NCBI GenBank assembly: GCA_949358305.1
Contig: OX442314.1
Location: 63,869,369 to 63,933,368, forward strand
From: Strigamia acuminata
Lineage: Eukaryota; Arthropoda; Chilopoda; Geophilomorpha; Linotaeniidae
Direction of reading: 5' to 3'
DNA: 64,000 nucleotides
A program made the position numbers and the translations under genes. Every line of letters begins with the position of its first letter. The first letter of the stretch is position 1. Shown one piece after another: positions 2,346 through 28,700 of the stretch. The notes below the pieces were generated by a model. That model had not been told where the DNA came from. It did not search any database and saw nothing but the letters and a program-made list of their open reading frames with translations.

Positions 2346-4262
2346 ATTGATAATGAAGGAAATCGTTATCCAGTCGCATTTGCTTCGCGAGCTTTAAACA
2401 GCGCCGAAAAAAATTATCCAGTGACCGAAATTGAATGTCTTGCGGCTGTCTGGGCAGTTAAAAGATTTAGACCTTATCTTGAAATGATGGACTTCTATTT
2501 AGAGAGTGACCACATGTCACTCAAATGGCTTTTCCAACAACGCGAACCACGAGGTAGACTCGCAAGATGGGTTTTATCCCTAAGTGAATATCGTTTCACA
2601 TTCATCTACATCTCAGGATGCAAAAATCGTGTCGCGGATGCACTAAGCCGCGCACCTGTCGATCCTGCAGAAGAAGAGGAAGAAGATGATAGTCCTCTTG
2701 TGGATGAAGCGTGCTATATTGCATTTTTTGACGATATCTCAGACTGGCCAGAACTAAGAGTCATCGAAGATCTAATAGACGAACCACAATTCGCGTACTG
2801 TAAGTTAAAAAAGAATTTTTGTAATAATAGAAATCATTTCATTTCAGCCTTGACACCAACAAAATCTAAAAAAAAGAAAAAGACGTTAAAACATGGACCA
2901 ACGTTGAAACGACCAGTGGGACGACCCCCAAGGGACCCCACAGTTCCAACATTTTCACCGCGATCTCGTCGTGCCATTTCAACAAGAACAAGGGCACGAA
3001 TCCAAGATCCAACGTTGATACCACCAACTCCGGTGCCACCAACGCCACCAGTTGGAAAACGCTCAGTAGGTAGACCAAGAAAAAGGAAAGCAGTGGATCC
3101 AATCGCTGTTCCTACATCACCAAAAACACGGCGTTTAATTCCACCAGCAATGGTGAAAAGGCCAGTTGGTAGGCCCAAAAAACAATTAATTGTGCCACCT
3201 CCATTTCCACCAATTGTGGTGCCACAACCACCGCAAATAATAATTACACCGCCAACACCACCGCTTCCTGATGATGAACTTCCAGTTTTGCCATCAGTAC
3301 CAGAGGAAATGGTTCCGAAACGTGTGCCAGGACGTCTAAAAAAGCGTAAGACTGGAATTCCGGAACCAATTGTGCCGTCACCAAGGTTACGAAAACCTAC
3401 GGCACCTGTGCTGCCACCTGAAGAGGTGCCATCAAAACGTCGAGTTGGCAGACCACGTAAAACGCAGTCTGGTATTCCAATACCAATTGGAAAACCTAAA
3501 CCAATTTTGAAACCAACTCCTACCCCAATTTATACACCATCACCACCAATCTCTCCTATTCCTTCACCCATAAGTCCTCATCCATTTTCCAAGCCTTTTG
3601 CAGAACCAGAAGAGCCACAAGCTGGACCATCGGGTTACAGACCCGAACCTTCCTTCGCGACGTCGGACAGCTCCGAATCATCATCAGACGAGAGCTACGG
3701 GCCAAATTTGGGCACGCAAACGCCCGAAACGATTTATTTTCGCCCATCTTTAACTCAGAAAAGAACTCCGAGACCACAACGTAGACCGCGAAGGAATTAT
3801 GATGAGGATGATGGTGACGAGCCGCCAAACGAATTGGAGAGACAGGCGGAATTGGACCACGACCCACCAGTGGACCATCCAGCGTTTGTGGTACTACCTA
3901 GTGCGGCCGAAATCATCGCAGCTCAGCAAGATGATCAAGATTCGCGGGAATTGATAGAGTATTTGACTCTTCACACACTTCCAGACGAACCGGAACGTGC
4001 TAATTTTATTTTGAATCATTCAAATGATTTTGGCATGTCAAAAGGTTTGTTGTGTCGTTTTCCTCCCAGAGACATAAATAAATTTCGCAAACGTCGCCAA
4101 ATTTATTTGCCTAACGCTGAGCTTCGCGAACGCTATTTCCGAGCACTACATTATCCACCAATTGGAGGGCACATGGGAATAGAAAAAACCCTCCAAAGAC
4201 TTAAATCACGAGTATTGGCCAAAAATGCGCGAAGATGTGCAGACTTGGGTATTGGTTTGTGA
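2346..4262 (+). pseudogene. Ty3/gypsy Pol: truncated RNase H, AT-hook linker, start of integrase
   Basis: The frame begins inside RNase H. The first catalytic strand (T-D-A-S) is missing, but the later acidic residues are present: E in T-E-I-E-C-L, D in E-S-D-H-M-S-L, and D in V-A-D-A-L-S-R. A proline-rich basic linker of about 400 residues follows, with at least four AT-hooks (V-G-R-P plus basic residues, near 2915, 3068, 3168 and 3440) and a degenerate one (P-G-R-L-K-K near 3330). After an acidic patch comes the integrase N-terminal part (G-G-H-M-G-I-E-K-T). The frame is lost near 4215: the expected Y-W-P-K-M-R-E-D-V continuation is in another frame, consistent with loss of one base. A linker this long between RNase H and integrase is not usual for Ty3/gypsy. 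The frame uses no ATG of its own; it is a fragment of a polyprotein. Confidence 0.85.
2800..2847 (+). other. Candidate 48-nt intron inside the gypsy Pol frame
   Basis: A consensus donor GTAAGT at 2800-2805 and an acceptor preceded by pyrimidines (TTTCATTTCAG, ending 2847) enclose 48 nt, a multiple of three with no stop. Both spliced and unspliced forms stay open. The encoded segment (C-K-L-K-K-N-F-C...) looks unlike the flanking protein. It may equally be coincidence. Confidence 0.3.
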
Positions 4263-6055: not shown

Positions 6056-6802
6056 ATGTCAAATAGCAAACACCAAAATGGCGACCCACAAAAGAAGCTC
6101 AAATATCCAAAAAACCTGCCCATACCACCAATACGAGCGACATGCGAGTGGATATATCCGCATTTCCATCCCGATGAGCCTCTTGAACAATCCTTCCCAA
6201 ACTTCGAAGTATGCTGTATTTGCTCAGGTTGGGGAATTGAGACCACGCCACCAGTGAAGGAGATTGTGTGCCGCGCGTGCAAGGGCGCCGGAGAATTGCG
6301 TCGGTGCAAGTTCAGGGAATGGATGCGGATCTATTTTAATTGGGTCCTCCATTTCAAATACGCGGATGGAGTGCGCATTTACGAGTGGGTCCTGCCGCCG
6401 ACTCGCATTTTACAAGGAAGCATTGCCGCGATTCTGAGGTTTCGTTTCACCCATTATTGGTACTGGGCCAGAATCCAGCAACTGGCCGAGGAACGCGGTA
6501 TAGCACCTCGTCAATGGATCTACGCGATGGGAAACGCAATACGATGCCAACATGAGGCGGTGCCTCGCATGACGAACGAAGAAATCGCGGAATTGACCGA
6601 CTTTGCCAGGGAGCAGTACTTAACGGATCTTCAGTATGCTGGGATGATCAAGACCCTACCTGCATTCCTGGGTACCAATGCTAACTCAGAACAGGCGAGA
6701 CTTTGGATCGAAGATTTAAATCGCGAAATTGATCTACTGACGGCCGAAGCACGATTGCAGCCGATGCCTGAGCCATTGTTATATGTTCCAAAAGGACACG
6801 AA
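6056..6802 (+). pseudogene. Post-pol gene, first part: twin CxxCxGxG zinc motifs (split by copia-1)
   Basis: An ATG frame of 249 codons up to the copia-1 insertion. Near residues 48-80 it has two C-x-x-C-x-G-x-G motifs (C-C-I-C-S-G-W-G and C-R-A-C-K-G-A-G), the pattern of DnaJ-type zinc centres, followed by an aromatic, helix-like region. After 6802 the frame runs 14 codons into the LTR and stops. Removing copia-1 and one 5-bp target repeat makes the frame continue at 13830 without a shift. I infer one gene in pieces: 6056-6802, 13830-14031 and probably 22799-23886, the arithmetic giving 679 codons. I do not recognise the product. Its place after pol is that of env or accessory genes, but I see no signal peptide or membrane anchor in it. 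It could also be a host gene invaded by elements. Confidence 0.6.
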
Positions 6803-7281
6803 TATAAAGCGATTTCCTGGCCAAAACATCGGTTAGAAAGGAGTTGACGAGTGTCTAAACAGGTGCGCGACACCGACATGCGTGCGCCATGTTTAATATC
6901 ACATAAAAGTGTACACGCTTCGAGGCTAACAACTGCACTCGGAAAAATAGGATAAATCATTGTTGGATTTCAATGATTTGTCCTTTACATTATAAAATAA
7001 AAGCAATGACATTCATAATCGATAACTAAGCAATAATAACAATACAGGACTCGCTCTTTTGAGCAGACGATGTTATCAGCGCATGCTGCTAAATGGAAAC
7101 GTTCAACCGCGGTACAGAACCAGCATTAATAAAAATCGAGATCGATTGAACGCGACATCGAGACATTAAATAGCAGCACATTCATTACACATATCCGGAA
7201 AGTGTGTAATGTAAATATTCACAAACTATACAATATGGCGACAAACAACCAAACACACAATATTTCCACCACAACTCAATA
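6803..7281 (-). repeat. Copia-1 3' LTR
   Basis: 479 bp, the same as 13346-13824 at an offset of 6543. On the sense strand it begins TATTGAG and ends CTTTATA, so the ends are TAT...ATA rather than TG...CA. The limits are fixed by the ACGAA target repeat and the primer-binding site. It includes a stem-loop CAAATCATTG...CAATGATTT next to GTAAAGGACAAATCA, shared with the LTR relic at 843-1316. Confidence 0.93.
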
Positions 7282-7298
7282 TATCCCCCTTTGTTTGG
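7282..7298 (-). other. Copia-1 polypurine tract
   Basis: Sense strand ACAAAGGGGGATA lies directly between the gag-pol stop and the 3' LTR, the expected plus-strand priming site. Confidence 0.75.
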
Positions 7299-10200
7299 TT
7301 ATTTGCGCCTTACAAATAAATGCTCACACAAGGTGTTAAGTCTGGGCTTGGGTAACCATTTGGTCATCACATCGGCGACATTCAGGGCCCCTGGAATATG
7401 CTTAATAGCAAACGTTCCGCGCTCAAACCAGTCCCTGAGGAAATGAAGCTTTACGTCGATATGTTTATTCGCCCTATTCTCTATTCGGTTTTTGGCGTAT
7501 TGTATCGCGGGCATACTGTCCGCGTACACGCATGGGGTGTTCCGATTGATGCTGAACATGATGTCGGCATCGTAAAGCCTCTCTAGCCATATAATCTCCT
7601 TTACGCCATCGACCACGGCCAGAAATTCACTCTCCATGATCGATAACGCAGTCATTGACTGCTTATGGCAGTTCCACATGATCGGAACGCCACCCAAATA
7701 GACTATGTGACCCCCGAAGCTTCTCCTTTTGTCTGCATCGAGGGCAAACGACGCGTCGGTATACACAGTTAGATTATCATTTCGGCAATTGGAAAGATTA
7801 ATCATATAATCCGACGTATTTGCCAGATATCGCAAAATTTGCAATAACATACTAATGTGACGCGTCGAATGTTTCTCATTGTATTGTGAGAGGACAATGA
7901 CCGAGAACAGGATGTCTGGCCTTGTCCTGCTCGCCAAGAACAAGAGACTTCCCACTAAGTTGCGATAGGGGAAAGTGGAATCAACCCGCTCCTTTTCCGT
8001 CACGCCCTGAATAATCGTTCCTGGCGTCCCAGGTACTCTAATCCGAAGGCATGAGTCGACCCCATACAACTTACAAAGTTTTTCTATGTATGCCCTTTGA
8101 TGGATCCTAATTTGGCCCCCAGACCTATCAAAGGCTATGCCTAACAAGAGGGTCACGGGACCCAAATCAACCGTGTCAAAGGATTCCCTAATCCATCGAA
8201 CAACGCATTCCTCGACGTAGTCATCCTTGGAGAAGAGAACTATGTCGTCCACGTAAAAGATAAGAATTGCGTCGTTGTCTAACGCATAAACACAGTTAAG
8301 ACCCAACAAGGGCACAAATCCCAGTTGGAGTAGACGGTCGTGGAGGGCTTGGTACCACATCCGTCCACTCTGATGTAGTCCATATAATGACTTCAACAGC
8401 ATCCAACACTTATGTTGGTTTTCGGCTGTTCTGTAGCCCTTGGGAATCTCCATGAATTGGACCTTATCAAGGTCCCCGTACAAGTACGCGGCCTTGATGT
8501 CAAGGTGGACATCTCTCCAACCTTTCAGTATCACCAAGGTACAGAAAAACACTATAACGAGGACGAAATTGACTACGGGGGAAAATACCTCCGTAAAGTC
8601 AATGCCCGGCCTCTGCTTGAAGCCTTGTGCTACCAAGCGAGCCCGGTAGCGCGCGACTGCACCCGACTGGTCCCTTTTCATTTTATAAATCCATTTTGAT
8701 CCCAAAAGCAACTCTCCTTCGGGCTTATCAATTTCTTTATAGACAGTTCGATCGTCGAAGATATCTGTCTCTTCTTTCATCGCCTTTTCCCAGTCCCGTT
8801 TGTTGGTGTGCCTCATTGCCTCCTCGTAGGTATCAGGCTCTACGGCACAGAAACCGGCAAAAGGGAGTTCGGGTTCTTCACCCTCTAAGGTTTTGAAGTC
8901 AAAAAGATCTGGGTCGTAGTGGTAACCCTCTGCGTCGCACCATCGCGCAACGTCAGTCCGACTTCTAAGTTTGTCTTCATTGGGCGAGAAATAAACCACA
9001 TCAATTTTCCCAGCCGTTGCCCCGGCTTTCCGGACAGACTGGACCCGTCTCCACTTAGTCATATCCAGCGGCAGCGACAAAGGATCTTTGACCTTCTTTC
9101 CCTTTTTGCCCGAACCACGACGAGCTTGTATCGTAGGAGGAAGATCAACCTCCTCATCGTCGTCAGGATAAACATTGAAGTAATTCTCGCCATCGCCGTT
9201 ATCCCCCTTCGCCCCACCAATTTCTTCAACTGGATTATCCCCAGCACCAGCATCCCCAACCAAGTCACCTTCAACAGTTTCTATCGCAGGCTGTTGTATC
9301 GCTTGTTTTACAAGCGGCCTCAATTCAGGTCTGAAAACAGGCTTTGGGGTTGTGGGTAAAGGAGGCTTCTCCTTCGGAACCGGGGGTTCAACAGGGGGCG
9401 GAATAGGAGGTGGTAGTGCCTCTTGCACTTCCTCAACAATTTCAGGGATAGGGGCAACGGAATCATCATCATCTCCCTCGGTGTCCGAGGAAGAATCCCC
9501 AAAATGTTTGAATTGGCCACCCTGCGGTTGCTTGATGGGCTGTTGTAGCCGTTTGCCAATCTCATACCAATATGAGTCTTCGAAAATTCGGACATGTTTG
9601 GACGCAAAAACTTGATTCCGTACAGGATCCCAAACCCTGTAGCCCCTAGTTGATATTGCGTATCCAATGAGTGCTCCCGCCCAAGCCCTTCCTTCCAGTT
9701 TGCCCTTTCTGACCTGGGACGGGATATGTACAAATGTCTTCGACCCAATACACCTGATGTGTCGCAAAGACAATTTCTTGCCGAAAAACACGGTATAGGG
9801 CACTTTTCCTCCAAGCCCTTCATGGGGGAATCGGTTCTTTAAGTAAACTATGGTCGTCGCTAATTCAGCCCAAAGGGGATAGGGGAAATCATTTTCCAAC
9901 ATTAAAGCTCTGACGCCACCGACAATGGTACGGTTTGCACGTTCTGCAACAGAATTCATTTCCGGGCTATATGTATTCGTACGAATACATTTCAAACCAA
10001 TTTTGGATGCATAATCATCCCAATTCCGCGAAATAAATTCTCCTCCATTATCAGTTTTAATGCATTTCACTTTCCGTGATGTCGTTCTTTCGACTTCCGT
10101 CAACCAACGTTTAAAATGGCCCAAAACTTCCCCTTTGGTCTTCATCGTTATGATCCACATATAACGTGAATAATCATCAACCAATATAAAGTAAAAATTA

Positions 10201-12146
10201 GCCCCACCCAAGGAAGTAGCTTGTGATGCCCCCCAAACATCCATGTGCACTAAATCTAATACTCCCTTAGTGGAAATGGTAATTATCGGGGGAAAACTCG
10301 CCCTAGTGCTCTTAGCACGGGCACATGCGTCACAAGTGGATAATTCTTTGTTAGACAAATTGATCCCAAAAACGTCCTCGGATTCGGTTAATTTAATAAT
10401 GCCTTTAGCATTATGGTGGCCCATTCTGGAATGCCACGTGTCCATACTCTGGGATATTTCTTTCTTTCTCATTTTGATCCCAGTATCCCCGCTTTTGTTA
10501 ACTTTCGCAGTCGCATTAGCTTCGGGAACAATAGCAGGAGGTGTCTGAACCTCATTCACTGTTTTCTGTAAATTAATCGCCGCAGGCGCATTCGCTTTGG
10601 TTGGCTCGCTTACTTGCGTACTCAAATTAGATGCGGATTTTCCCATATCCGGCTTACAGAAACTTTTTAGTAAAGCTGACTTAAAATCTAAAATGGTTAG
10701 TAGCGGTTGTACAAATTTTTCATCCTTCACGGATGATTTGATTAAATCGAGGACAGCAGCTGTATCCTGTTGCGCAGTTAATGCAGCTGTGTTTACAGAA
10801 TTAACCTCGACCCGGCAGTTGACTTTGTACAGCCTGTCGCTAGTCCGAACTGCCGAAATCAATGGTTCCTCGATTTTATCTTTGAAAATACTCATCTTCC
10901 CATCTTTAACAATTGTGCACAACCCAGCCTCATCGGTGCGCCCGAGCGAAATAAGGTTTTTCCGAAAATTCGGTGCGAAGAATACATTCGTCAAAGTTAT
11001 TTTCCTCGTTCTTTGTCCATAGAGCGAAGTGAGGACGATGTTGCCCACACCTTCAATCTTCGATTTTCCTTCTCCTTGTAGAACGCTGAAGTTAGACAAC
11101 GGTTTGAAGTTTGAAAACCAATTCCGGTTGAAGGAAAAGTGGTCGGTCGCTCCCGTGTCCACGTACCACTGTGAATCGTAGTTTCCGTGCGACACAAGAG
11201 ATAAGGGCACTGTGGGCTTCTCTTCCGACACCGCAGAATACAAAGTGTAGGGCTCATCTGTATAGGGGTCCAGTTGTGTGAGATTTGCTCTCTGTGGACC
11301 CCCTCTGCCTCGTCCTTTGCCACGGGTGCCTCCACGATTCAATTGGGCTGGCGAGCCAGCGCTGGCGGGGAAAGTCCCTTGCTGTTTCGGCGGCGATGGG
11401 CACTCCCTGGCGAAGTGTCCCGACCCACCGCAAGTAAAACATGTTCCACGCGAAGTTCCGGGGGAATTTGGGGTTTTTCCACGAGGTTTCCATTTCCCTT
11501 TAGTATAGAAAGCGGTAGTATTGTCTGCCAATACAGGTGGGACGCCAAATTCATTGGTCTGTTCATAAAGGCGATTGTACTCGCCAAGTAAACGTTCTTT
11601 AACGTTTTTCGCTGTGAATTCCGTATCCGACCAGTGATACGCGGTCTGTTTCACAGCCTCGTATTGTGGGGGCAGAAGATCTAAATATTGGAATGCCTGG
11701 AATTCATCGGTGACCTCAATTTTAACGTCCTTCAGTTCGACGATTTTGCGGTCGACCCGCCCGGTGAAAACTAGCATTTCCTCATTATCTCGAAGTTTCA
11801 TGTTGAGGAATTCACGTCGCAACCGAGCACGACGTGCCCTCGTCGTCGGTTGATAAGCGTCCTTTAGGGCTTCCCAAACTTTCGCAGCGGTGGGGCAGGC
11901 AACAGCTATCACTTGCTGCGGCTCAGCGCAACTCATGCAGATAGTGGACATTGCCTTGTCCTCTCGAGCGTTAAACTCTCGCTTCTCTTTTGCAGTGGCT
12001 GTTGCAGCCAGTGGTGGCTCAGAGCCACTAACATGTCCCCAAACGCCGTTGTATTTGAGCAATAACTGGACCTGCACGGACCAGGTGGCATAGTTCGTGC
12101 CATCGAGCTTTTTAATATCCTTGTAATCGTCGTGCTTTGAAGCCAT
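7299..12146 (-). CDS. gag-pol: Copia-1 Gag-Pol polyprotein (1615 aa) with MBD-like domain
   Basis: A single intact frame; I use the ATG at 12146 (Met-Ala-Ser-Lys) rather than an upstream GTG. In order: Gag region (1-230); CCHC knuckle C-F-T-C-x4-H-x4-C (236-249); aspartic protease D-T-G-A (330-333); integrase H-H-C-C finger (about 571-608) and D636, D699, E735 with the 35-residue spacing; acidic and proline-rich linker (880-1020); an MBD-like segment (about 1031-1086); RT with Y-V-D-D (1298-1301); RNase H with T-D-A-S and the C-terminal A-D-V-M-T-K-W. The MBD match is W1032, R1039-K1040, A-G-K-x-D1049-V-x-Y-F, R1061-S, then F-D-F-K-T. The tyrosine that in MBD proteins contacts methyl-CpG is valine here, but both Arg-finger positions are kept. 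All catalytic residues I can check are present. No frameshift separates gag from pol. Confidence 0.95.
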   Translation of the reverse strand: MASKHDDYKDIKKLDGTNYATWSVQVQLLLKYNGVWGHVSGSEPPLAATATAKEKREFNAREDKAMSTICMSCAEPQQVIAVACPTAAKVWEALKDAYQPTTRARRARLRREFLNMKLRDNEEMLVFTGRVDRKIVELKDVKIEVTDEFQAFQYLDLLPPQYEAVKQTAYHWSDTEFTAKNVKERLLGEYNRLYEQTNEFGVPPVLADNTTAFYTKGKWKPRGKTPNSPGTSRGTCFTCGGSGHFARECPSPPKQQGTFPASAGSPAQLNRGGTRGKGRGRGGPQRANLTQLDPYTDEPYTLYSAVSEEKPTVPLSLVSHGNYDSQWYVDTGATDHFSFNRNWFSNFKPLSNFSVLQGEGKSKIEGVGNIVLTSLYGQRTRKITLTNVFFAPNFRKNLISLGRTDEAGLCTIVKDGKMSIFKDKIEEPLISAVRTSDRLYKVNCRVEVNSVNTAALTAQQDTAAVLDLIKSSVKDEKFVQPLLTILDFKSALLKSFCKPDMGKSASNLSTQVSEPTKANAPAAINLQKTVNEVQTPPAIVPEANATAKVNKSGDTGIKMRKKEISQSMDTWHSRMGHHNAKGIIKLTESEDVFGINLSNKELSTCDACARAKSTRASFPPIITISTKGVLDLVHMDVWGASQATSLGGANFYFILVDDYSRYMWIITMKTKGEVLGHFKRWLTEVERTTSRKVKCIKTDNGGEFISRNWDDYASKIGLKCIRTNTYSPEMNSVAERANRTIVGGVRALMLENDFPYPLWAELATTIVYLKNRFPHEGLGGKVPYTVFFGKKLSLRHIRCIGSKTFVHIPSQVRKGKLEGRAWAGALIGYAISTRGYRVWDPVRNQVFASKHVRIFEDSYWYEIGKRLQQPIKQPQGGQFKHFGDSSSDTEGDDDDSVAPIPEIVEEVQEALPPPIPPPVEPPVPKEKPPLPTTPKPVFRPELRPLVKQAIQQPAIETVEGDLVGDAGAGDNPVEEIGGAKGDNGDGENYFNVYPDDDEEVDLPPTIQARRGSGKKGKKVKDPLSLPLDMTKWRRVQSVRKAGATAGKIDVVYFSPNEDKLRSRTDVARWCDAEGYHYDPDLFDFKTLEGEEPELPFAGFCAVEPDTYEEAMRHTNKRDWEKAMKEETDIFDDRTVYKEIDKPEGELLLGSKWIYKMKRDQSGAVARYRARLVAQGFKQRPGIDFTEVFSPVVNFVLVIVFFCTLVILKGWRDVHLDIKAAYLYGDLDKVQFMEIPKGYRTAENQHKCWMLLKSLYGLHQSGRMWYQALHDRLLQLGFVPLLGLNCVYALDNDAILIFYVDDIVLFSKDDYVEECVVRWIRESFDTVDLGPVTLLLGIAFDRSGGQIRIHQRAYIEKLCKLYGVDSCLRIRVPGTPGTIIQGVTEKERVDSTFPYRNLVGSLLFLASRTRPDILFSVIVLSQYNEKHSTRHISMLLQILRYLANTSDYMINLSNCRNDNLTVYTDASFALDADKRRSFGGHIVYLGGVPIMWNCHKQSMTALSIMESEFLAVVDGVKEIIWLERLYDADIMFSINRNTPCVYADSMPAIQYAKNRIENRANKHIDVKLHFLRDWFERGTFAIKHIPGALNVADVMTKWLPKPRLNTLCEHLFVRRK

Positions 12147-13329
12147 CACGACGACACCAGGAAAATGCACAATAATAATTGGTTATGCACAGAGAGAACA
12201 CAATTTCGGAATTTATTCCGCACACACACTTCACAGGAGCACTTAATCACACAATGCACAATTGTCTCTAGTCCCAAAAACCAAAAAGGAAGGCGAAAAT
12301 ACAGTTTCAACCCGGGGAATCTCAATAAGTGAGATTGGAAAACCTTGACTGGCAATCCACCAACTCTTCCGTCCGACCTCCTGGGGTCGCGGGATGGTTG
12401 GGGGCCCTGGATAAGCCCAGCCAAGAATACAGTGCTACGTGCCCGACTGGACGTAGGGTAGCACCGAATCTAACAAGGGACCAACAACAAAAACTTAAAA
12501 CTATACAGAGTTTCACGAAAGTATGCAAATAAATCAAAACAGTCTAGATGTGAAGTTGGCCAATTACGGGATCCTTGCGCCGTAATCGGTTCCCACGGTG
12601 TGTTCAACGTCGGCTTCACGTGTCGAATTAACTCACACGCACGCCGGGGTGCTAATGTGAGGAGAAACCCTCTCAACTGGTGCACCCTGCGTGCAAAACC
12701 AGGGTTTCCTCTTGAAATCGTCGTTGCGCACGTCCGCGCCTTCGTAATTCCACGTCGGGTGTAAATCACGGCTCTTCGTGCTAAATATGGCTGTGTACGT
12801 GGACTTACACGTAAACACAGCTCCAAAACGAATATTCACCGTCGATGGCGATGAAAAACGATCAAAATGGTCGCCACAGAACAAATCTTCGTCCTCGACG
12901 ATCCTACGACAAATATCGGTCGTTTTGCGTCGAAACTCCGTCGTGTCGACGTGAATGGGCGTCGTCTCGCTGGCAATACTGATTGCCTCGGCAAAATAAC
13001 GTCGTGTTGGCGTGTATCGGTTCAGATGCACGTCTGGGCTGCGATTCGCTTCACGGCCGAATCCAAAATGGCCGCCGCAGGAGAATTTCACAACGACGTC
13101 GGAAAAAGTGCTTATTTCGCACAGAAAAATTTCGAAATAAAGCTGCTTACACACTAAAATGTCCGTAGTAATGTCCGCACACGTTGCCGATCGTTTCCAA
13201 TCGATTTGGCGAAGAAAATCCGTCTGCGTCGGTCGGTTCGCGTTTGCGGCGAAGTCGGGCGACGTCTTGGCTTCGTCTCGCGTCCAAAAAGGTCGGAAAT
13301 CCTTTACAAACTGGTCAGGCCGTCGAGAA
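12147..13329 (-). mobile_element. Copia-1 5' leader
   Basis: About 1.2 kb between the primer-binding site and the gag-pol ATG. It has no conserved ORF; open frames on either strand show no recognisable domain. It is richer in CpG than the flanking host DNA and includes GAATCCAAAATGGC near 13063. Confidence 0.7.
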
Positions 13330-13345
13330 CCATCCTCTGCTACCA
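13330..13345 (-). other. Copia-1 primer-binding site (tRNA-iMet)
   Basis: The plus strand reads CCATCCTCTGCTACCA, identical to the 3' end of metazoan initiator-Met tRNA including CCA. Sense strand TGGTAGCAGAGGATGG directly abuts the 5' LTR. Confidence 0.92.
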
Positions 13346-13824
13346 TATAAAGCGATTTCCTGGCCAAAACATCGGTTAGAAAGGAGTTGACGAGTGTCTA
13401 AACAGGTGCGCGACACCGACATGCGTGCGCCATGTTTAATATCACATAAAAGTGTACACGCTTCGAGGCTAACAACTGCACTCGGAAAAATAGGATAAAT
13501 CATTGTTGGATTTCAATGATTTGTCCTTTACATTATAAAATAAAAGCAATGACATTCATAATCGATAACTAAGCAATAATAACAATACAGGACTCGCTCT
13601 TTTGAGCAGACGATGTTATCAGCGCATGCTGCTAAATGGAAACGTTCAACCGCGGTACAGAACCAGCATTAATAAAAATCGAGATCGATTGAACGCGACA
13701 TCGAGACATTAAATAGCAGCACATTCATTACACATATCCGGAAAGTGTGTAATGTAAATATTCACAAACTATACAATATGGCGACAAACAACCAAACACA
13801 CAATATTTCCACCACAACTCAATA
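13346..13824 (-). repeat. Copia-1 5' LTR
   Basis: Same sequence as 6803-7281 (I found no difference). Followed by target repeat ACGAA at 13825-13829, after which the interrupted ORF resumes in frame. Confidence 0.93.
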
Positions 13825-14031: not shown

Positions 14032-14953
14032 ATGGCAGAGTTTACAGTTACGTCACTGTGACAACACATCCGTTCGAAAACGAGGCTAAGGGGTATAAAC
14101 AAACCCAAATAGCATAGGATTCTCAATACAATGTACATAAAACCTGATTATTTCTTTGGCAAATTTTATTTTAAAGATGAATCGCACATTTTCAAAATTT
14201 TTATATGTTTATTAACATACTTTTACTTCTTTTTAATTATTTTCCACATTTTTTCACTGGTTTAAAATGTTTTTTGGTTTGGTCATTTTTGTCTTCAGAT
14301 CAGCGGATGGACTAATTGTCAGCTGTCAATCGTCAGCCGACAATTTTTGGCATTCTGCTTGCGAATTTTGGCCGTCAGCTGTCTACTTTTGCATCCGACC
14401 ATCAGCCGTCAATTGTCGCGGCCGTCAGCTGTAGTTTGTCTTCGCCCGACGATTTGTTGGCCGTCAGCTGACGATTTTTGGCCATCGCCGTCGACTGACG
14501 CGGCCATCGCCGTCGACTATCGCGGCCATCAGCTGTTGCGTCCGACTGCTGTTGCGTCCGACTGTCAGCTGGCGATTGTTGGCCGACAGCTGACAATTTT
14601 TGGCCGTTGCTGTCGACTGTCGCGACCGTCAGCTGCAGATTGACGCGGCCGTCGCTGTCGACTGTCGAGGCCGTCAGCTGACGATTTTTGGCCGTCAGCT
14701 GCCGACTGTCGACAGTCAACAATCGCCAGCTGACGACCGCGACAGTCGACAGCAACGGCCAAAAATTGTCAGCTGTCGGCCGACAATCGCCAGCTGACGG
14801 CCTCAAATCGTCGGGCGAAGGCCGCGACAATCTACGGCGAAGGCCGCAACAATCTACAGCTGACGGCCGCGACAATTGACGGCTGATGGTCGGACACATC
14901 AGTCGTCGGCTGACGGCCAAAAATCGTCAGCTGTCGGCCAACAATCGCCAGCT

Positions 14954-15483
14954 TGTTGGTCAAAAGACCATTTTGTATCGATGAATATATTTGCTATTTC
15001 TTAGATTTCCCATTGTGTTTAGGTATACAGCGCATTTTTGTCATTATTTAATTGATTTCGATGTTACTATTCGTTTTTGCGCTGTCCCGTATGTAATTCC
15101 ATACTCCTGTATCCTTTAGACTATGATTTGTTCTCCAATTCAATGATTTGTTCACACTTAATGTTAATTTCCGGCACCAGAGTGCCCCTGTCACTGTATC
15201 CATAAAATCCAAGATGGCGCGATCCTTTGATTCCAGCTCCTTGGATATTTTCCACCTGTTTTGTAATGTATATCTTGATTTATAAAGTGTTTTATATATT
15301 TTTGACATTGTGTTGGGTCTATTCATTGCTTTAGAGCAGCCCACAGTGCATATAAGCGACCTTACGTCGCGCACTTTGTTTGCAAGCGATACGGATCGTA
15401 TCGCCGCTGTCCGCGCGTGTAGTGCGGCTCCAATCACGCTTCCAATCGGTGACAACCGATATTTTGCGCATTCTCTGTCTACA
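14954..15483 (+). repeat. Copia-2 5' LTR
   Basis: 530 bp, TGTTGGTC...TCTACA. A TATAAG at 15351 preceded by CAGTGCA is a plausible TATA box, which would leave about 130 bp of transcribed R/U5. It includes ATCCAAGATGGCGCG near 15210, a YY1-like motif. Confidence 0.93.
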
Positions 15484-15484
15484 T

Positions 15485-15500
15485 TGGTAGCAGAGGGTGG
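15485..15500 (+). other. Copia-2 primer-binding site (tRNA-iMet, one mismatch)
   Basis: TGGTAGCAGAGGGTGG follows the LTR after one base. It matches the complement of the initiator-Met tRNA 3' end except G for A at position 13. Confidence 0.85.
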
Positions 15501-16392
15501 TTGTTCAGTGAACAACCGTTCCATTTGCCTAATTTTTCGACGCTTTTTCGCGAAATTCGCGAATTTGCGCCGATATTTTTATTTTCAGATTTTCGGTGGC
15601 CATTTTGTCTCGATTTTCGTCTCGACTACGACGCCGACGTTCTACCGACGTTCACAGACGACCAGGGTCGTCAATCACATCAACATTTGTCTAATTTTCT
15701 CCGAAATTACGCGGGATTCGCGAATTTCGAGAGAAATATTTTATATTTTCAGATTATTCGTCGATTTTCCTTTCGCCAGTGTCGAAGTGACACTTTTCAA
15801 CGAGAAACGGATCGAATTCCGCTGTGTATACCCCGGCGTATGCACAGTATCGTTGATCTATTATTTTCCGGACGAAGAGCCTCGATTTATCGAGAAGAAA
15901 TTCGGATTTTTCAATCCGAATTTGCGCTTTTTCCAGTTTTTCGAGAAAACTGCGCCGTGCCTTCATTTGCACGAGGATCGCAACCGCGATCGATTCAGCT
16001 ATTTCTCCTTCTGTCGAAATACCATTGTTAATCTTAAGATATTATTAAGGCTTTTGGGGGTTCCTTTAGAATCGTGTTTGCCCTTGGATCGAGTCCGGTC
16101 AAGCTTACACGTATTCTCCGGTTGTGCTTGTCGCGGTACAAGTGAGGTTTCCCGCGGCTCCAGGAAGCCGATCGGACCCTCTCAGACTGGCAACCGGAGG
16201 TTATTTGATTCCTTCAGAAGGAATTGCCCAATTTGTGGTTTTTCGCCTCGAACACCGAGGGAACCGTGCAGTGAAGTGCTCCGAATTGCGAAAATTGTGA
16301 AAAGTGCTCCAATCTCGTGCGACATTTCAGTGCCTCTCTCTGAGCCGGTGTGATTTTCGCGTTGTGTTACGCTCTTCGCGAATCGATCTACG
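15501..16392 (+). mobile_element. Copia-2 5' leader
   Basis: An approximately 0.9-kb leader before the gag-pol ATG. It holds an imperfect duplication: two segments about 165-180 bp apart (near 15540-15600 and 15705-15770), each with CGCGAATTT and then a pyrimidine-rich TATTTTCAG resembling a 3' splice site. Long open frames cross it from the LTR, but they lack an ATG of their own, lack domains and continue through the primer-binding site, so I do not call them genes. Confidence 0.65.
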
Positions 16393-19300
16393 ATGCAGAA
16401 AGCGGCCAACTCGAACAGTTTAATTCCAGTTCTCGGTGTCGACAATTATGAACAATGGCGATTGTCGATGCAGTTTCTCTTAAAATCGGAGGGGCTTTGG
16501 CGTCACGTAACAGAAGATAAGGAGGCAGAGCACATTGCCACGCTGACGCCTAAAGAACTTGATCGCTTTATGGTGAAGAAGGACAAGGCCCTAGGCCACA
16601 TATACATCCATGTGAGCCCCGCCAAGCGTACAGTTTTGGAGACCTGTAACACGCCAAAGGAGGCGTGGGACAAGTTGGCGAAAACCTACGCACCCAGCTC
16701 TAGAGCCCGTCAAGCGGCGATGCGCTGGGAGTTTCTCAGCCTCCAACTCCAACCTGGCGAAGATATGCCGGACTTCATTGCCCGCGTCGATAATTACGTG
16801 CGGCAACTAAGCGATGTCAACGAGATTATTAGCCCGGTTCACCACGCATACCAGTATTTGAAGTGTCTGCCGCCCGAATATGCTCAGGCAACATTCGCCA
16901 TATACCACTGGCCGGATCCCCAATTCACGCCGAAGGATGTCGCCGAGCAGCTGATTTCGGAGCACATGCGGCTCAAATCCATCGGGTTACTCGGAACGAG
17001 CCAATCAACAGCTCACGCGTCTATGAAGGGACAATTCCGACCCCGAAATAAATCCGGACCTCGTGATATCTCGACAGTGAAGTGTTTTAATTGCGACCAG
17101 CTCGGACATTACGCGAACCGATGTCCATGTCCGCCTCGTCAACAACAGGGACAACCTACGGTTTCACTCCAACGTAATTCTCGGAGCAAGAGTCGCCGGC
17201 GCAACAAGAACGCTGCTGCGAAGGCCAACAACGCGCGTCCCCGAGAAAGCTCGCATCCACACCGAGAGGGGACATATTTTGTCAATGCGCCGCAGGTTAT
17301 CCAACATCCAGTCGCTCATTTTATGCAATCCAATGAGTGGATTCTGGATTGCGGCGCTACAGATCACGTATCTCACGTGCGTGCCGGTTTCACCGAGTTC
17401 ACCGATGTCATTCCATTCGACATCGAGTTGGGACAGGGAAAGTCCCAAGTGACGGGAAAAGGAACGGTTCGTTTGCTAATGGCGATCGATAAGACCCGAT
17501 GCACCGTGAATTTAACAAACGTCCTTTACGCGCCGAATTTCGAGGCAAACTTGATTTCGGTTTCGAAGATAGACAAGGCGCGACATCACATCCACATTTT
17601 TAATAGTGAGATACATGTTTACGAATCGGACATTCGCAGCCCTCTTATCCGTGCAAAGGAGAGAGGAGGTCTCTATTATGTGGACGGTTTGTGTTCGAAT
17701 CCGACATTTGCGACAACGGTTTCTCCCATTGTACAACCGACTCCAACGTCACCGCCGCAAATGTACGTGACAACAGAAGAGGATTTTATTAAAATTCCCA
17801 AACCGAAAAAGGGAAAAGGACAGCAAAGAGAAATTACGGATTTTCGGATTGAAATGCCGCTAGTTGAACCCGTGAAGCAAATTCCCATTCAACAAGCTCC
17901 CATTCCAACCAATCCGACTCCTCCTCCTATCCCTACTCAAATCCACAACGATTTGACCACCCCTCCTTCTTATGCGAGTGCCCTACAGTCAATCCCAACG
18001 GCAACTCCTATTGCAATTCCAAATGCAAATTCCTTTCCTCCCCTCGGCAACCCGTCTCAACCGAAAAAGAAGGTCATCGCCAATCCAGCCTCCGTCAAGG
18101 ACGCCACCGGCTTATGGCATAGCCGTCTTGGCCACCTTCATACGAACGGAATGAAGCTATTGGCCGCAAACGACCAAGTTTACGGAATGTCACCAGGGGA
18201 AGTAAGCAGAGAATTGGCCTGCAATGACTGCAGAATAGCCAAATCGACAAAAGCGTCTCATAAGCCTGATCCGAATCCCTCGACTACGAAGCCTTTGGAC
18301 CTTCTCCACATGGATATTTGGGGGCCAGCCCCAGTTCCATCGTTTGGAGGAGCACGTTTCGTCCTTACCGTCATCGACGACGCAACACGCTATTGCTGGA
18401 TTATACCGCTAGCCCAGAAATCGCAGGTTTTCGCAACCTTTAAGGACTTCGTCGCTCGAGTGGAGAGAATCCAGGACACGCAAATCAAAGCGATTCGGAC
18501 TGATCGAGGCGGAGAGTTTATGTCAAACGAATTTCTCCGATATCTACAAGACAAGGGCATCCAAGGCCAACGAACAAATCCGTCATCACCACAGATGAAC
18601 GGCACGGCCGAGCGCATAAACCGGACAATGGCCGACAACTTTCGTGCAGTTTTATCCGAAACCAAGTTGCCGGAGGCGCTCTGGGCCGAGCTAGCGGTCA
18701 CGTTTGCCTACATCAAGAATCGGAGCCCTCATTCTCGACTTCACAATCAAGTTCCGTATATCCTTTGGCGACAGAGAGCCCTTTCGTTACGACATCTACG
18801 AAAAGTCGGTTCCAAGTGCTGGGTGCACTACACCGCACCAGGCCGCAAGAAGCTGGATCCGCGGGCCTGGGAGGGATATTTAGTCGGCTACGCTTCAGGG
18901 ACCCGTGGATACAGAATTTGGAACCCAACTGACAACCAAGTCTATGAATCTATTCACGTTAAGATCGATGAGCGGCAGTCGTATCGGAAATCCATCAAAA
19001 TTTCGACGCAGCAGCCGCAACAATCGTTTACTGGTCCCGGACAGCAAACCGTTACATTTGATGATAACCTACATTACCATCAGTGGCCGAAAGGATCTGA
19101 TTCCGAGGCGTCAGAACATTCCGCGAACGATTCCGAACGTGTGTCGACGGCATCTGCTTCGATGCACACGCCTCTGGCTTTTCCGCACATCCACATACCA
19201 CCACCGACAACTCCGGAACGGGCATTGCTGGATTTATGTGCGACATTACCTCCAGGTTCTGCGTCTCTTCGTCAATCCCATCATATTTCGTACGAAGAAG

Positions 19301-21396
19301 AACGTGACACCGACCATGACATCCGAGAGATGGACGAATTGTCGATTTATCCGGAAACATCCGAACACGTTGATGCGTCAGCGGAACAGTCGGCACGACA
19401 ATCGCCTCCGACAACTCCTCGTACATCCGCTCCGCCATCACCTCAGCGATCGGCAGCGCCTTCTTTTCCCCGTGAAACCCCGGTACCGACGCCGAGATTT
19501 ATTACGACGCGTCGTCAGCAACGTGTTGATGATCAGCCTACGCAAGGGTTGCAAATTTTTGACCCCGATCCCAATTCGCCGGCGACTGCGCGCCACACCA
19601 CTCATAAGTGGCGATTTGTCGGTGGAGACAGCGAGTGCCGTGAATGGGTACGCGAGGAACATCTAAGAAAGGATCAGAAGCCCGGAAAGATCTTAATCGA
19701 CGTTTATTATTTTCCAACTCCGAAGATCCGTCTAAGATCTTATCACGACATCGAGGAGTATTGCATGTTGAACAACATCGATTACGACCCCGGACTGTTT
19801 TTCTTCGGTAATCTCGAACATAAGTTACCAACTCTTCCGGGTGTTCGTCATGCGGCTCACCTATGCCGAACCGAGCCGGCTTCATTCGCCGAAATTCCCA
19901 AGTTCAACGACGCTCCGAAATGGCGTGACGCAATTGGAGAGGAGCTCGATATGTTCAAAGAACGAGAAATCTATAAAGAAGTTCCCCGACCACCGGACAC
20001 CACTATTCTCGGTTGTAAATGGATTTTCAAATTAAAGACCGATGCAGCCGGAACCGTCACCCGATACCGAGCACGCTTAGTAGCGCAAGGCTTTTATCAA
20101 ACTCTCGGAGTCGATTTTGATGAGGTGTTTAGCCCAGTCGTGAACTTCATATTGATCCGTCTGTTTTTCTGTCTTCTCGTCGTATTACGTGGTTGGCAGG
20201 ACGCCCACCTCGACGTGAAAGGTGCGTACCTGTACGGGGAGTTAAAGCATAAAGTATATATGAGAATCCCTGCAGGTGCCACATGCACCGATCCAAACAA
20301 CGTGTGGCTTCTTCTCAAATCGCTTTACGGCCTCCACCAATCCGGGAGACAATGGTTCGAGAAACTCGACGAGACACTTCGGGCCCTCGGATTTCGAAGA
20401 CTGCCAGCATGTAATTGTGTTTACGTGTTTGGGAATACAGCTGTTATGCTGGTCTACGTGGACGACATCGTCGTGTTCTACGCGTCCGACAGCGTTTTCA
20501 AGCAACTCATCCGTCTCATCTCTTCGAAATTCGACATAGTCAACCTTGGTCCGATCACGAAGTTATTAGGCGTCGAATTTATCCGCGACGCCGGACGCAC
20601 GTTCATAACGCAACGTGCTTATATCGCCAAACTGGTTAAGAAATTCGGGGCGTCGACCAACAACCTCGTCAAGACACCAGTGACCCCGGGAACGACACTC
20701 GTTAGGGGATCGACCGAAAACTTGGAAGATTTTCCATACCGATCTCTAATCGGTTCACTTCTGTTTTTGGCATCGAGAACTCGTCCCGACATACTCTATT
20801 CCGTCATCGCTTTGGCACAGTACAACACGTGCTATAATCGAACCCACATCCGCGCCCTATTGCAGGTTCTGCAGTACGTGGCAAACACTGCGGAGCTTTG
20901 CATCGAGTTATCCGGTTGCTCTTCTAGTCAACTATCTGCATTTACCGACGCGTCGTGGGCAAGCGATCCGGAGACATCTTTGAGCTTCGGAGGATACATC
21001 GTATACGTTGGAAATGTCCCTATTGGCTGGTCCTGTCGCAAACAGTCGACCGTAGCGTGCTCAACCATGGAAGCCGAATTTATCGCCCTGGTTGAGTGCG
21101 TGAAGGAGATTTTCTGGCTCGACAGCGTGTACACCGAATTCCCGATTCTCAATCGTCTATCCCGACCTATCGTGTATTCGGACGCCCTGGCCTCGATTCA
21201 ATTCACATCTAATGATATCGAGAACGCGAAGACGAAGCATATTCGCGTGAAGTTTCACTGGCTCAGGGAGTGGTTTACTGCAGGAGTCTTCGATCTTCGA
21301 AAGGTAGCCGGCGAAGCTAATACCGCCGACATATTCACAAAGTGGCTATCTTCGGAACGTTTACGATCATTGATTTCGAAGATCTTCCGAGCATAA
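16393..21396 (+). CDS. gag-pol: Copia-2 Gag-Pol polyprotein (1667 aa) with MBD-like domain
   Basis: A single intact ATG frame. In order: Gag region (1-215); CCHC knuckle C-F-N-C-x4-H-x4-C (231-244); protease D-C-G-A (319-322), with Cys where Ser or Thr is usual; integrase H-H-C-C finger (about 575-613) and D641, D704, E740 (35 apart); a Ser/Pro-rich linker (880-1065); an MBD-like segment (about 1073-1140); RT with Y-V-D-D (1355-1358); RNase H with T-D-A-S and the C-terminal A-D-I-F-T-K-W. The MBD match is W1085-V-R-E-E-H-L-R1092-K, G-K-x3-D1103-V-Y-Y-F, R1115-S, then F-F-F-G. Unlike copia-1, the D-V-Y-Y-F tyrosine is kept. The segment lies between integrase and RT, where Ty1 and other copia integrases carry targeting functions. 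Only the protease Ser-to-Cys change could affect activity. Confidence 0.95.
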   Translation: MQKAANSNSLIPVLGVDNYEQWRLSMQFLLKSEGLWRHVTEDKEAEHIATLTPKELDRFMVKKDKALGHIYIHVSPAKRTVLETCNTPKEAWDKLAKTYAPSSRARQAAMRWEFLSLQLQPGEDMPDFIARVDNYVRQLSDVNEIISPVHHAYQYLKCLPPEYAQATFAIYHWPDPQFTPKDVAEQLISEHMRLKSIGLLGTSQSTAHASMKGQFRPRNKSGPRDISTVKCFNCDQLGHYANRCPCPPRQQQGQPTVSLQRNSRSKSRRRNKNAAAKANNARPRESSHPHREGTYFVNAPQVIQHPVAHFMQSNEWILDCGATDHVSHVRAGFTEFTDVIPFDIELGQGKSQVTGKGTVRLLMAIDKTRCTVNLTNVLYAPNFEANLISVSKIDKARHHIHIFNSEIHVYESDIRSPLIRAKERGGLYYVDGLCSNPTFATTVSPIVQPTPTSPPQMYVTTEEDFIKIPKPKKGKGQQREITDFRIEMPLVEPVKQIPIQQAPIPTNPTPPPIPTQIHNDLTTPPSYASALQSIPTATPIAIPNANSFPPLGNPSQPKKKVIANPASVKDATGLWHSRLGHLHTNGMKLLAANDQVYGMSPGEVSRELACNDCRIAKSTKASHKPDPNPSTTKPLDLLHMDIWGPAPVPSFGGARFVLTVIDDATRYCWIIPLAQKSQVFATFKDFVARVERIQDTQIKAIRTDRGGEFMSNEFLRYLQDKGIQGQRTNPSSPQMNGTAERINRTMADNFRAVLSETKLPEALWAELAVTFAYIKNRSPHSRLHNQVPYILWRQRALSLRHLRKVGSKCWVHYTAPGRKKLDPRAWEGYLVGYASGTRGYRIWNPTDNQVYESIHVKIDERQSYRKSIKISTQQPQQSFTGPGQQTVTFDDNLHYHQWPKGSDSEASEHSANDSERVSTASASMHTPLAFPHIHIPPPTTPERALLDLCATLPPGSASLRQSHHISYEEERDTDHDIREMDELSIYPETSEHVDASAEQSARQSPPTTPRTSAPPSPQRSAAPSFPRETPVPTPRFITTRRQQRVDDQPTQGLQIFDPDPNSPATARHTTHKWRFVGGDSECREWVREEHLRKDQKPGKILIDVYYFPTPKIRLRSYHDIEEYCMLNNIDYDPGLFFFGNLEHKLPTLPGVRHAAHLCRTEPASFAEIPKFNDAPKWRDAIGEELDMFKEREIYKEVPRPPDTTILGCKWIFKLKTDAAGTVTRYRARLVAQGFYQTLGVDFDEVFSPVVNFILIRLFFCLLVVLRGWQDAHLDVKGAYLYGELKHKVYMRIPAGATCTDPNNVWLLLKSLYGLHQSGRQWFEKLDETLRALGFRRLPACNCVYVFGNTAVMLVYVDDIVVFYASDSVFKQLIRLISSKFDIVNLGPITKLLGVEFIRDAGRTFITQRAYIAKLVKKFGASTNNLVKTPVTPGTTLVRGSTENLEDFPYRSLIGSLLFLASRTRPDILYSVIALAQYNTCYNRTHIRALLQVLQYVANTAELCIELSGCSSSQLSAFTDASWASDPETSLSFGGYIVYVGNVPIGWSCRKQSTVACSTMEAEFIALVECVKEIFWLDSVYTEFPILNRLSRPIVYSDALASIQFTSNDIENAKTKHIRVKFHWLREWFTAGVFDLRKVAGEANTADIFTKWLSSERLRSLISKIFRA

Positions 21397-21591
21397 ACTT
21401 ATCGTGACATTCCTAGTTTCTTTTCACCCGACTTCGAGGATCATCGGGTTTCTGTGGGAATACCGAGCTTAGTTAAGTGATAACCACGACAGTACCCGGC
21501 CCGATGGTTCGACTTTATCTTTTATTTCTCAACGATTATCAACTGTAATTCCAGTTTACGTTCATCTTGTCCCCTGATAAATATTTCCATC

Positions 21592-21603
21592 GAAGAGGGG
21601 ATT
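21592..21603 (+). other. Copia-2 polypurine tract
   Basis: GAAGAGGGGAT directly before the 3' LTR, the expected plus-strand priming site. Confidence 0.75.
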
Positions 21604-22133
21604 TGTTGGTCAAAAGACCATTTTGTATCGATGAATATATTTGCTATTTCTTAGATTTCCCATTGTGTTTAGGTATACAGCGCATTTTTGTCATTATTTA
21701 ATTGATTTCGATGTTACTATTCGTTTTTGCGCTGTCCCGTATGTAATTCCATACTCCTGTATCCTTTAGACTATGATTTGTTCTCCAATTCAATGATTTG
21801 TTCACACTTAATGTTAATTTCCGGCACCAGAGTGCCCCTGTCACTGTATCCATAAAATCCAAGATGGCGCGATCCTTTGATTCCAGCTCCTTGGATATTT
21901 TCCACCTGTTTTGTAATGTATATCTTGATTTATAAAGTGTTTTATATATTTTTGACATTGTGTTGGGTCTATTCATTGCTTTAGAGCAGCCCACAGTGCA
22001 TATAAGCGACCTTACGTCGCGCACTTTGTTTGCAAGCGATACGGATCGTATCGCCGCCGTCCGCGCGTGTAGTGCGGCTCCAATCACGCTTCCAATCGGT
22101 GACAACCGATATTTTGCGCATTCTCTGTCTACA
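21604..22133 (+). repeat. Copia-2 3' LTR
   Basis: 530 bp, matching 14954-15483 at an offset of 6650 except for one substitution at 22058. Followed by target repeat CAGCT at 22134-22138 and the right arm of the foldback element. Confidence 0.93.
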
Positions 22134-25780: not shown

Positions 25781-28700
25781 CTTTAAAAATCTTTGAAAAT
25801 GTTTCAAAATCTTTGAAAATGTTTCAAAATCTTTGAAAATGTTTCAAAATCTTTGAAAATGTTTCGAAATCTTTGAAAATGTTTCATACTCTTTGAAAAT
25901 GTTTCGAAATCTTTGAAAATGTTTCGAAATCTTTGAAAATGTTTCGAAATCTTTGAAAATGTTTCGAAATCTTTGAAAATGTTTCGAAATCTTTGAAAAT
26001 GTTTCGAAATCTTTGAAAATGTTTCGAAATCTTTGAAAATGTTTCGAAATCTTTGAAAATGTTTCGAAATCTTTGAAAATGTTTCGAAATCTTTGAAAAT
26101 GTTTCGAAATCTTTGAAAATGTTTCGAAATCTTTGAAAATGTTTCGAAATCTTTGAAAATGTTTCGAAATCTTTGAAAATGTTTCGAAATCTTTGAAAAT
26201 GTTTCGAAATCTTTGAAAATGTTTCGAAATCTTTGAAAATGTTTCGAAATCTTTGAAAATGTTTCGAAATCTTTGAAAATGTTTCGAAATCTTTGAAAAT
26301 GTTTCGAAATCTTTGAAAATGTTTCGAAATCTTTGAAAATGTTTCGAAATCTTTGAAAATGTTTCGAAATCTTTGAAAATGTTTCGAAATCTTTGAAAAT
26401 GTTTCGAAATCTTTGAAAATGTTTCGAAATCTTTGAAAATGTTTCGAAATCTTTGAAAATGTTTCGAAATCTTTGAAAATGTTTCGAAATCTTTGAAAAT
26501 GTTTCGAAATCTTTGAAAATGTTTCGAAATCTTTGAAAATGTTTCGAAATCTTTGAAAATGTTTCGAAATCTTTGAAAATGTTTCGAAATCTTTGAAAAT
26601 GTTTCGAAATCTTTGAAAATGTTTCGAAATCTTTGAAAATGTTTCGAAATCTTTGAAAATGTTTCGAAATCTTTGAAAATGTTTCGAAATCTTTGAAAAT
26701 GTTTCGAAATCTTTGAAAATGTTTCGAAATCTTTGAAAATGTTTCGAAATCTTTGAAAATGTTTCGAAATCTTTGAAAATGTTTCGAAATCTTTGAAAAT
26801 GTTTCGAAATCTTTGAAAATGTTTCGAAATCTTTGAAAATGTTTCGAAATCTTTGAAAATGTTTCAAAATCTTTGAAAATGTTTCGAAATCTTTGAAAAT
26901 GTTTCAAAATCTTTGAAAATGTTTCGAAATCTTTGAAAATGTTTCAAAATCTTTGAAAATGTTTCAAAATCTTTGAAAATGTTTCAAAATCTTTGAAAAT
27001 GTTTCATAATCTTTGAAAATGTTTCAAAATCTTTGAAAATGTTTCATAATCTTTGAAAATGTTTCAAAATCTTTGAAAATGTTTCAAAATCTTTGAAAAT
27101 GTTTCAAAACCTTTGAAAATGTTTCAAAATCTTTGAAAATGTTTCAAAACCTTTGAAAATGTTTCAAAATCTTTGAAAATGTTTCAAAATCTTTGAAAAT
27201 GTTTCAAAATCTTTGAAAATGTTTCAAAATCTTTGAAAATGTTTCAAAATCTTTGAAAATGTTTCAAAATCTTTGAAAATGTTTCAAAATCTTTGAAAAT
27301 GTTTCAAAATCTTTGAAAATGTTTCAAAATCTTTGAAAATGTTTCGAAATCTTTGAAAATGTTTCAAAATCTTTGAAAATGTTTCGAAATCTTTGAAAAT
27401 GTTTCAAAATCTTTGAAAATGTTTCGAAATCTTTGAAAATGTTTCGAAATCTTTGAAAATGTTTCGAAATCTTTGAAAATGTTTCGAAATCTGTGAAAAT
27501 GTTTCGAAATCTTTGAAAATGTTTCGAAATCTTTGAAAATGTTTCGAAATCTTTGAAAATGTTTCGAAATCTTTGAAAATGTTTCGAAATCTTTGAAAAT
27601 GTTTCGAAATCTTTGAAAATGTTTCGAAATCTTTGAAAATGTTTCGAAATCTTTGAAAATGTTTCGAAATCTTTGAAAATGTTTCGAAATCTTTGAAAAT
27701 GTTTCGAAATCTTTGAAAATGTTTCGAAATCTTTGAAAATGTTTCGAAATCTTTGAAAATGTTTCGAAATCTTTGAAAATGTTTCGAAATCTTTGAAAAT
27801 GTTTCGAAATCTTTGAAAATGTTTCAAAATCTTTGAAAATGTTTCGAAATCTTTGAAAATGTTTCAAAATCTTTGAAAATGTTTCAAAATCTTTGAAAAT
27901 GTTTCAAAATCTTTGAAAATGTTTCATAATCTTTGAAAATGTTTCAAAATCTTTGAAAATGTTTCATAATCTTTGAAAATGTTTCAAAATCTTTGAAAAT
28001 GTTTCAAAATCTTTGAAAATGTTTCAAAACCTTTGAAAATGTTTCAAAATCTTTGAAAATGTTTCAAAACCTTTGAAAATGTTTCAAAATCTTTGAAAAT
28101 GTTTCAAAATCTTTGAAAATGTTTCAAAATCTTTGAAAATGTTTCAAAATCTTTGAAAATGTTTCAAAATCTTTGAAAATGTTTCAAAATCTTTGAAAAT
28201 GTTTCAAAATCTTTGAAAATGTTTCAAAATCTTTGAAAATGTTTCAAAATCTTTGAAAATGTTTCAAAATCTTTGAAAATGTTTCAAAATCTTTGAAAAT
28301 GTTTCAAAATCTTTGAAAATGTTTCAAAACTTTGAAAATGTTTCAAAATCTTTGAAAATGTTTCAAAATCTTTGAAAATGTTTCAAAATCTTTGAAAATG
28401 TTTCAAAATCTGTGAAAATGTTTCAAAATCTTTGAAAATGTTTCAAAATCTTTGAAAATGTTTCAAAATCTTTGAAAATGTTTCAAAATCTTTGAAAATG
28501 TTTCAAAATCTTTGAAAATGTTTCAAAATCTTTGAAAATGTTTCAAAATCTTTGAAAATGTTTCAAAATCTTTGAAAATGTTTCAAAATCTTTGAAAATG
28601 TTTCAAAATCTTTGAAAATGTTTCAAAATCTTTGAAAATGTTTCAAAATCTTTGAAAATGTTTCAAAATCTTTGAAAATGTTTCAAAATCTTTGAAAATG

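Follow-up and report, generated by a model that had tools for sequence, protein, structure and literature searches.

A methyl-CpG-binding domain in the Pol of a copia retrotransposon group of the centipede Strigamia acuminata

Copia elements of the window

The window, that is the whole stretch of 64,000 nucleotides that was analysed (contig OX442314.1 of assembly GCA_949358305.1, positions 63,869,369 to 63,933,368), is situated on chromosome 1 of Strigamia acuminata, some 3.05 Mb from the chromosome end, and contains two copia elements. Element 1 is complete and about 7.02 kb long (6802..13824, minus strand, edges accurate to 1 bp either way), with a 5' LTR at 13345..13824 and a 3' LTR at 6802..7281, each 480 bp long on the minus strand and the two 100% identical, and with an apparent 5-bp target duplication (TTCGT). 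The letters that follow the 5' LTR fit what we take to be the primer binding site of the initiator tRNA-Met. A single intact Gag-Pol ORF (7299..12170, minus strand) encodes 1623 amino acids from a GTG start as listed, with an ATG eight codons downstream.

Along this ORF, Pfam recognises, in order and all on the minus strand, DUF4219 and the copia Gag (PF14223; 11559..12071, aa 34-204), a zinc knuckle, a Pol beta-barrel, a GAG-pre-integrase domain, the integrase core (PF00665; 9963..10247, aa 642-736), which at 30.5 bits falls just short of its cut-off of 32.6, an SH3-like domain after the integrase (PF25597; 9567..9785, aa 796-868), a methyl-CpG-binding domain (MBD, PF01429; 8889..9056, aa 1039-1094 of the GTG-started ORF), which was also found by phmmer, and the reverse transcriptase (RT) domain RVT_2 (PF07727; 8031..8744, aa 1143-1380). 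The SH3-like domain and the MBD are separated by a fast-changing linker (9057..9566, minus strand, aa 869-1038). With Gag and an integrase that precedes RVT_2 in one ORF, with LTRs and with a target duplication, element 1 is a Ty1/copia LTR retrotransposon, the integrase core standing just under its cut-off, and it is a young, intact one of this centipede.

Element 2 (14953..22133, plus strand, edges again accurate to 1 bp) has LTRs of 531 bp that are 99.8% identical and an intact Gag-Pol ORF of 1667 amino acids (16393..21396, plus strand). Its MBD (19642..19818, plus strand, aa 1084-1142) has diverged and by itself reaches only 14.9 bits with the Pfam profile, below the cut-off of 21, and 40.8 bits with a profile built from eight other copies, namely seven further loci and element 1. 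In the RT tree described below, element 2 is a distant member of the MBD-bearing side.

Two other features of the window deserve mention. In a Gypsy ORF on the plus strand (2421-4262), RNase H and the zinc-binding domain of the integrase are separated by a stretch (2919-3479) with five AT-hook-like motifs, four of which have a GRP core and one a GRL core, and an open frame of a repeating peptide on the minus strand (25804-26907) is likely a tandem satellite.

The domain and its DNA-contacting residues

The assignment of the element 1 domain rests on several searches. The Pfam MBD profile, for which the curated cut-off is 21 bits, scored 40.7 bits on the whole ORF (E 1.8e-10) and 46.4 bits on the domain stretch alone (E 3e-12). 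In a single-sequence phmmer search, the nearest PDB chain was MBD2 (E 1e-8), followed by MBD1, MBD3, MBD4, MBD6 and MeCP2, the matches at E values of up to 0.1 all being MBD proteins, and a nine-copy profile matched MBD2 in the PDB at E 3.3e-15. With one or two input sequences, AlphaFold gave only weak models, whose mean pLDDT was 62.2 and 49.9; a Foldseek search with the low-confidence model of the domain gave MBD2 as its first match at an E value of only 0.059. When aa 1015-1125 were compared with 5.8 billion proteins, none of the 128 candidates reached E 0.01, which is ascribed to poor coverage of eukaryotes, and a search of viral contigs with six peptide patterns returned no match. On the evidence of the sequence matches, it is established that element 1 carries a true MBD, which lies between integrase and RT, where the integrase region ends.

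The first-pass annotation of this DNA had proposed an MBD-like domain at this point of the copia Pol and had called for a search with PF01429; the domain and its position are borne out, the score being well over the cut-off. The residues it named, 1031-1086, were the right ones when counted from the ATG and correspond to aa 1039-1094 above, but its nucleotide span of 8892-9057 was out of frame and should read 8889-9056. Both of the Arg positions that it had singled out as contacting methyl-CpG are indeed found in element 1. It had left unremarked that the Tyr which in MBD2 stands two residues after the conserved Asp is absent from element 1, where the position is occupied by Val.

An alignment of nine copies of the domain has seven invariant columns, W7, R9, R14, G21, D24, R36 and S37 in the numbering of the first sequence. 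We take R14, D24 and R36 to be the equivalents of R111, D121 and R133 of MeCP2, and the Arg/Asp/Arg set to be the DNA contacts; these contact positions are kept in all nine copies. The second residue after the Asp is more variable, being Tyr in element 2 and in loci L019, L021, L023 and L031, Val in element 1 and L035, Ile in L026 and Trp in L032. In MBDs this Tyr contacts the methylated C, and some members of the family, for example MBD3, do without it, so that its state bears on methyl selectivity and less on membership among the MBDs. Lineages D, F and G, as assigned by score groups, account for 141 of the 150 listed MBD matches, and in the copies read from them the Tyr is replaced by Ile, Trp or Val, a replacement that could mean weaker methyl selectivity in these lineages.

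The rate at which the domain changes was gauged by amino acid identity and not by dN/dS, because most segments show saturation at silent sites. Between element 1 and the two lineages nearest to it, L035 and L037, identity was 0.90 and 0.87 in the MBD, 0.83 and 0.82 in the RT, and 0.67 and 0.69 in the linker (computed on aa 885-1030). In comparison with five more distant elements the ranges were 0.41-0.59 for the MBD, 0.52-0.76 for the RT and 0.20-0.43 for the linker. In each of the seven pairs the MBD is thus better conserved than the linker, and against the five distant elements it is less conserved than the RT.

Distribution in the genome

The genome searched comprises 237,517,015 bases in 157 contigs, and it holds at least 150 matches to the Pfam MBD profile, all above the cut-off, these being the best 150 scored of 1092 first-look candidates. 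Twenty loci, picked among them for diversity, were fetched: the MBD lies within an open frame in every one of the 20, and the RT shares that frame in 17 (the exceptions being L020, L023 and L024). An LTR pair is present in 13 of the 20 and in both elements of the window, with identities of 98.1-100%, so few differences that the pairs of the MBD loci do not lend themselves to a test of CpG decay. For comparison, 14 copia loci without an MBD were drawn from the best 150 RVT_2 matches, and in none of these 14 did the eight-copy MBD profile find a significant match. In an RT tree, a branch with 100/100 support separates 16 MBD rows from the 14 MBD-less rows; six further MBD rows, whose RT was short or missing, were not included. 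The simplest reading of this topology, for the 14 MBD-less rows compared, is that the MBD would have been captured once, in a common ancestor of the copia group.

In the pre-RT linker, seven of the 14 MBD-less loci (L039, L040, L041, L042, L048, L051 and L052) show AT-hook-like GRP motifs at the position taken by the MBD in the other group, and the remaining seven have neither MBD nor GRP motifs. It is conceivable, if rather doubtful, that in S. acuminata the stretch between integrase and RT is a changeable targeting slot, filled with an MBD, with AT-hook-like motifs or with neither, and that the commonest MBD lineages have changed the DNA signal to which they respond. Were this so, the lineages with a swapped Tyr might read a changed signal, and two of the three (D and G) would do so while keeping the same address; the MBD-less copia, counted over both motif classes together, are as a whole dispersed.

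The address in question would be the chromosome end. On the nine autosomes, 63 of 111 MBD matches from the best 150 are found 3 Mb or less from an end (a uniform spread would give 26%), and the corresponding count for the best 150 copia RVT_2 matches, taken as MBD-less, is 21 of 135 (Fisher p 1.2e-11 against the MBD matches). Two points underlie the treatment of the RVT_2 list as MBD-less: with this profile the two elements of the window reach no more than 177 and 194 bits, whereas the list ends at 233, and all 14 of the loci read were without an MBD. The difference persists among long open frames (at least 1500 aa for MBD and at least 1288 aa for RVT_2, a filter that dropped 31 and 53 of the 150), with 50 of 91 MBD and 12 of 89 RVT_2 matches near ends (p 3.3e-9). 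Among the best 150 Gypsy H2C2 matches, 43 of 94 are near ends. The end bias therefore distinguishes the MBD-bearing copia from other copia; Gypsy shares it. These counts leave out the rows off the nine autosomes (39 MBD, 15 RVT_2 and 56 Gypsy), and the lengths of chromosomes C4, C6, C8 and C9 were taken by fit from the S. acuminata genome note. By lineage (score groups, with nine matches unassigned), the near-end counts are 14/21 for D, 46/79 for G and 1/6 for F. At the distance of the window from the end of chromosome 1, element 1 is itself just beyond the 3-Mb limit.

One end is richer in MBD matches than the other on seven of the nine autosomes (C1, C3, C4, C6, C8, C9 and C11), for example 14 to 1 on C1, 12 to 0 on C6 and 8 to 0 on C9; the exceptions are C5, with 2 to 2, and C10, with none. 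This one-ended crowding suggests one-sided heterochromatin, and perhaps acrocentric centromeres. Chromosomes C12, which fits the X (9.63 Mb), and C13, which is taken as the Y, hold 20 and 28 of the best 150 Gypsy H2C2 matches, 8 and 4 of the RVT_2 matches, and 11 and 12 of the MBD matches, respectively.

Methylation as an address, and comparison with known systems

DNMT matches were found at about five loci of the S. acuminata genome, some of them DNMT1-like by reading, and an SRA domain was found as well. For Strigamia maritima, Lewis et al. 2020 report high methylation for a fraction of 0.758 of the 719 TEs that bear domains, and they count the species as one of two arthropods with strong TE methylation; published work also gives it a methylation level of 33.18%, four Dnmt1 and one Dnmt3. 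Given such strong TE methylation in S. maritima, the element and the mark can be studied together within the genus.

We consider it likely that a copia group gained an MBD2-like MBD that tethers integration to methylated DNA. According to this scenario, the Pol of one copia group would have taken up the domain at the C-terminal end of the integrase, just before the RT; assuming that it stays on the integrase after processing, it may bind methylated CpG within silenced DNA rich in TEs and tether the pre-integration complex there, with the outcome that new copies would avoid genes. The domain would thus probably help the element to insert into silenced, methylated parts of the chromosomes. That the element reads methylation in choosing its integration sites had been put forward in the first-pass annotation, and indirect evidence speaks for it: the position of the domain in Pol, its slower change relative to the linker, the retention of Arg, Asp and Arg, and a location unlike that of the MBD-less copia. 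The idea is qualified by Gypsy, which has the same location bias.

Indeed, with nearly half of the autosomal Gypsy matches near ends, the end bias of the MBD copies may stem from survival in gene-poor DNA. An alternative would therefore accept the MBD as real but attribute the crowding to the longer survival of long LTR elements at gene-poor ends, the MBD serving another role, for example to let methylated copies of the element itself stay transcribable or to compete with the MBD repressors of the host. In line with this, MBD and Gypsy matches per Mb are correlated (Spearman 0.39). It is weakened by the dispersal of the other copia, which do not crowd at ends even when only long frames are counted, and by the near-identity of the LTR pairs, which leaves little time for selection to have acted on these copies; the Gypsy result keeps it alive, and we judge it unlikely. 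A second alternative, to which we give a distinctly lower probability, holds that in the commonest lineages the MBD is no longer a reader of methylation and now serves integrase or RT as a general clamp on DNA. That three lineages have the Tyr replaced in the copies that were read would fit such a change, but the Arg, Asp and Arg are retained throughout the alignment and lineages D and G are still crowded at the ends. That the domain is a chance resemblance or a generic copia linker, for which the low Pfam score of the element 2 domain might be cited, is refuted by the score of element 1 far above the cut-off, by PDB matches confined to MBD proteins and by the lack of a significant profile match in the 14 MBD-less loci.

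Tethering to methylated DNA, the reading that we prefer, would make a retrotransposon with a host-like reader of DNA methylation a clean case of selfish DNA for which a silencing mark serves as an address. The combination of an MBD with a copia-type retrotransposon is already on record. De Mendoza, Pflueger and Lister 2019 (Genome Res 29:1277, PMC6673714) described a family of arthropod retrotransposons in which an MBD has been captured, one called functionally active in their title, and Lewis et al. 2020 cite that paper for a recent TE family of S. maritima that becomes highly methylated. The view of the first-pass annotation that no known copia architecture includes an MBD must consequently be given up, since the combination had been reported in 2019 in the sister species S. 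maritima. In both cases an MBD has been captured in an arthropod retrotransposon, apparently of the same kind; the species differs within the genus. What the chromosome-scale assembly contributes is the location pattern and the natural variants of the MBD. The earlier family goes by the name CopiaMBD, and copia elements with a host-derived MBD reportedly bind CpG-dense methylated regions, with young copies reported to accumulate in CpG-dense regions of S. maritima and, in a spider, in methylated gene bodies. If so, the targeting idea of the first-pass annotation is the one already published.

Comparison may be extended to other systems. MBD2 and its relatives are the closest MBDs by sequence and have the same Arg/Asp/Arg; the copia domain differs in sitting within Pol, in having three extra residues ahead of its last conserved stretch and, in element 1, in the replaced Tyr. 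The integrases of Ty5 and Ty1 likewise have a C-terminal targeting region situated before the RT, but their partners are chromatin or Pol III proteins and not modified DNA. The chromodomain of chromoviruses is also a reader of a mark of silent chromatin fused to an integrase, although the mark that it reads is histone methylation and the elements that carry it are Ty3/Gypsy and not copia.
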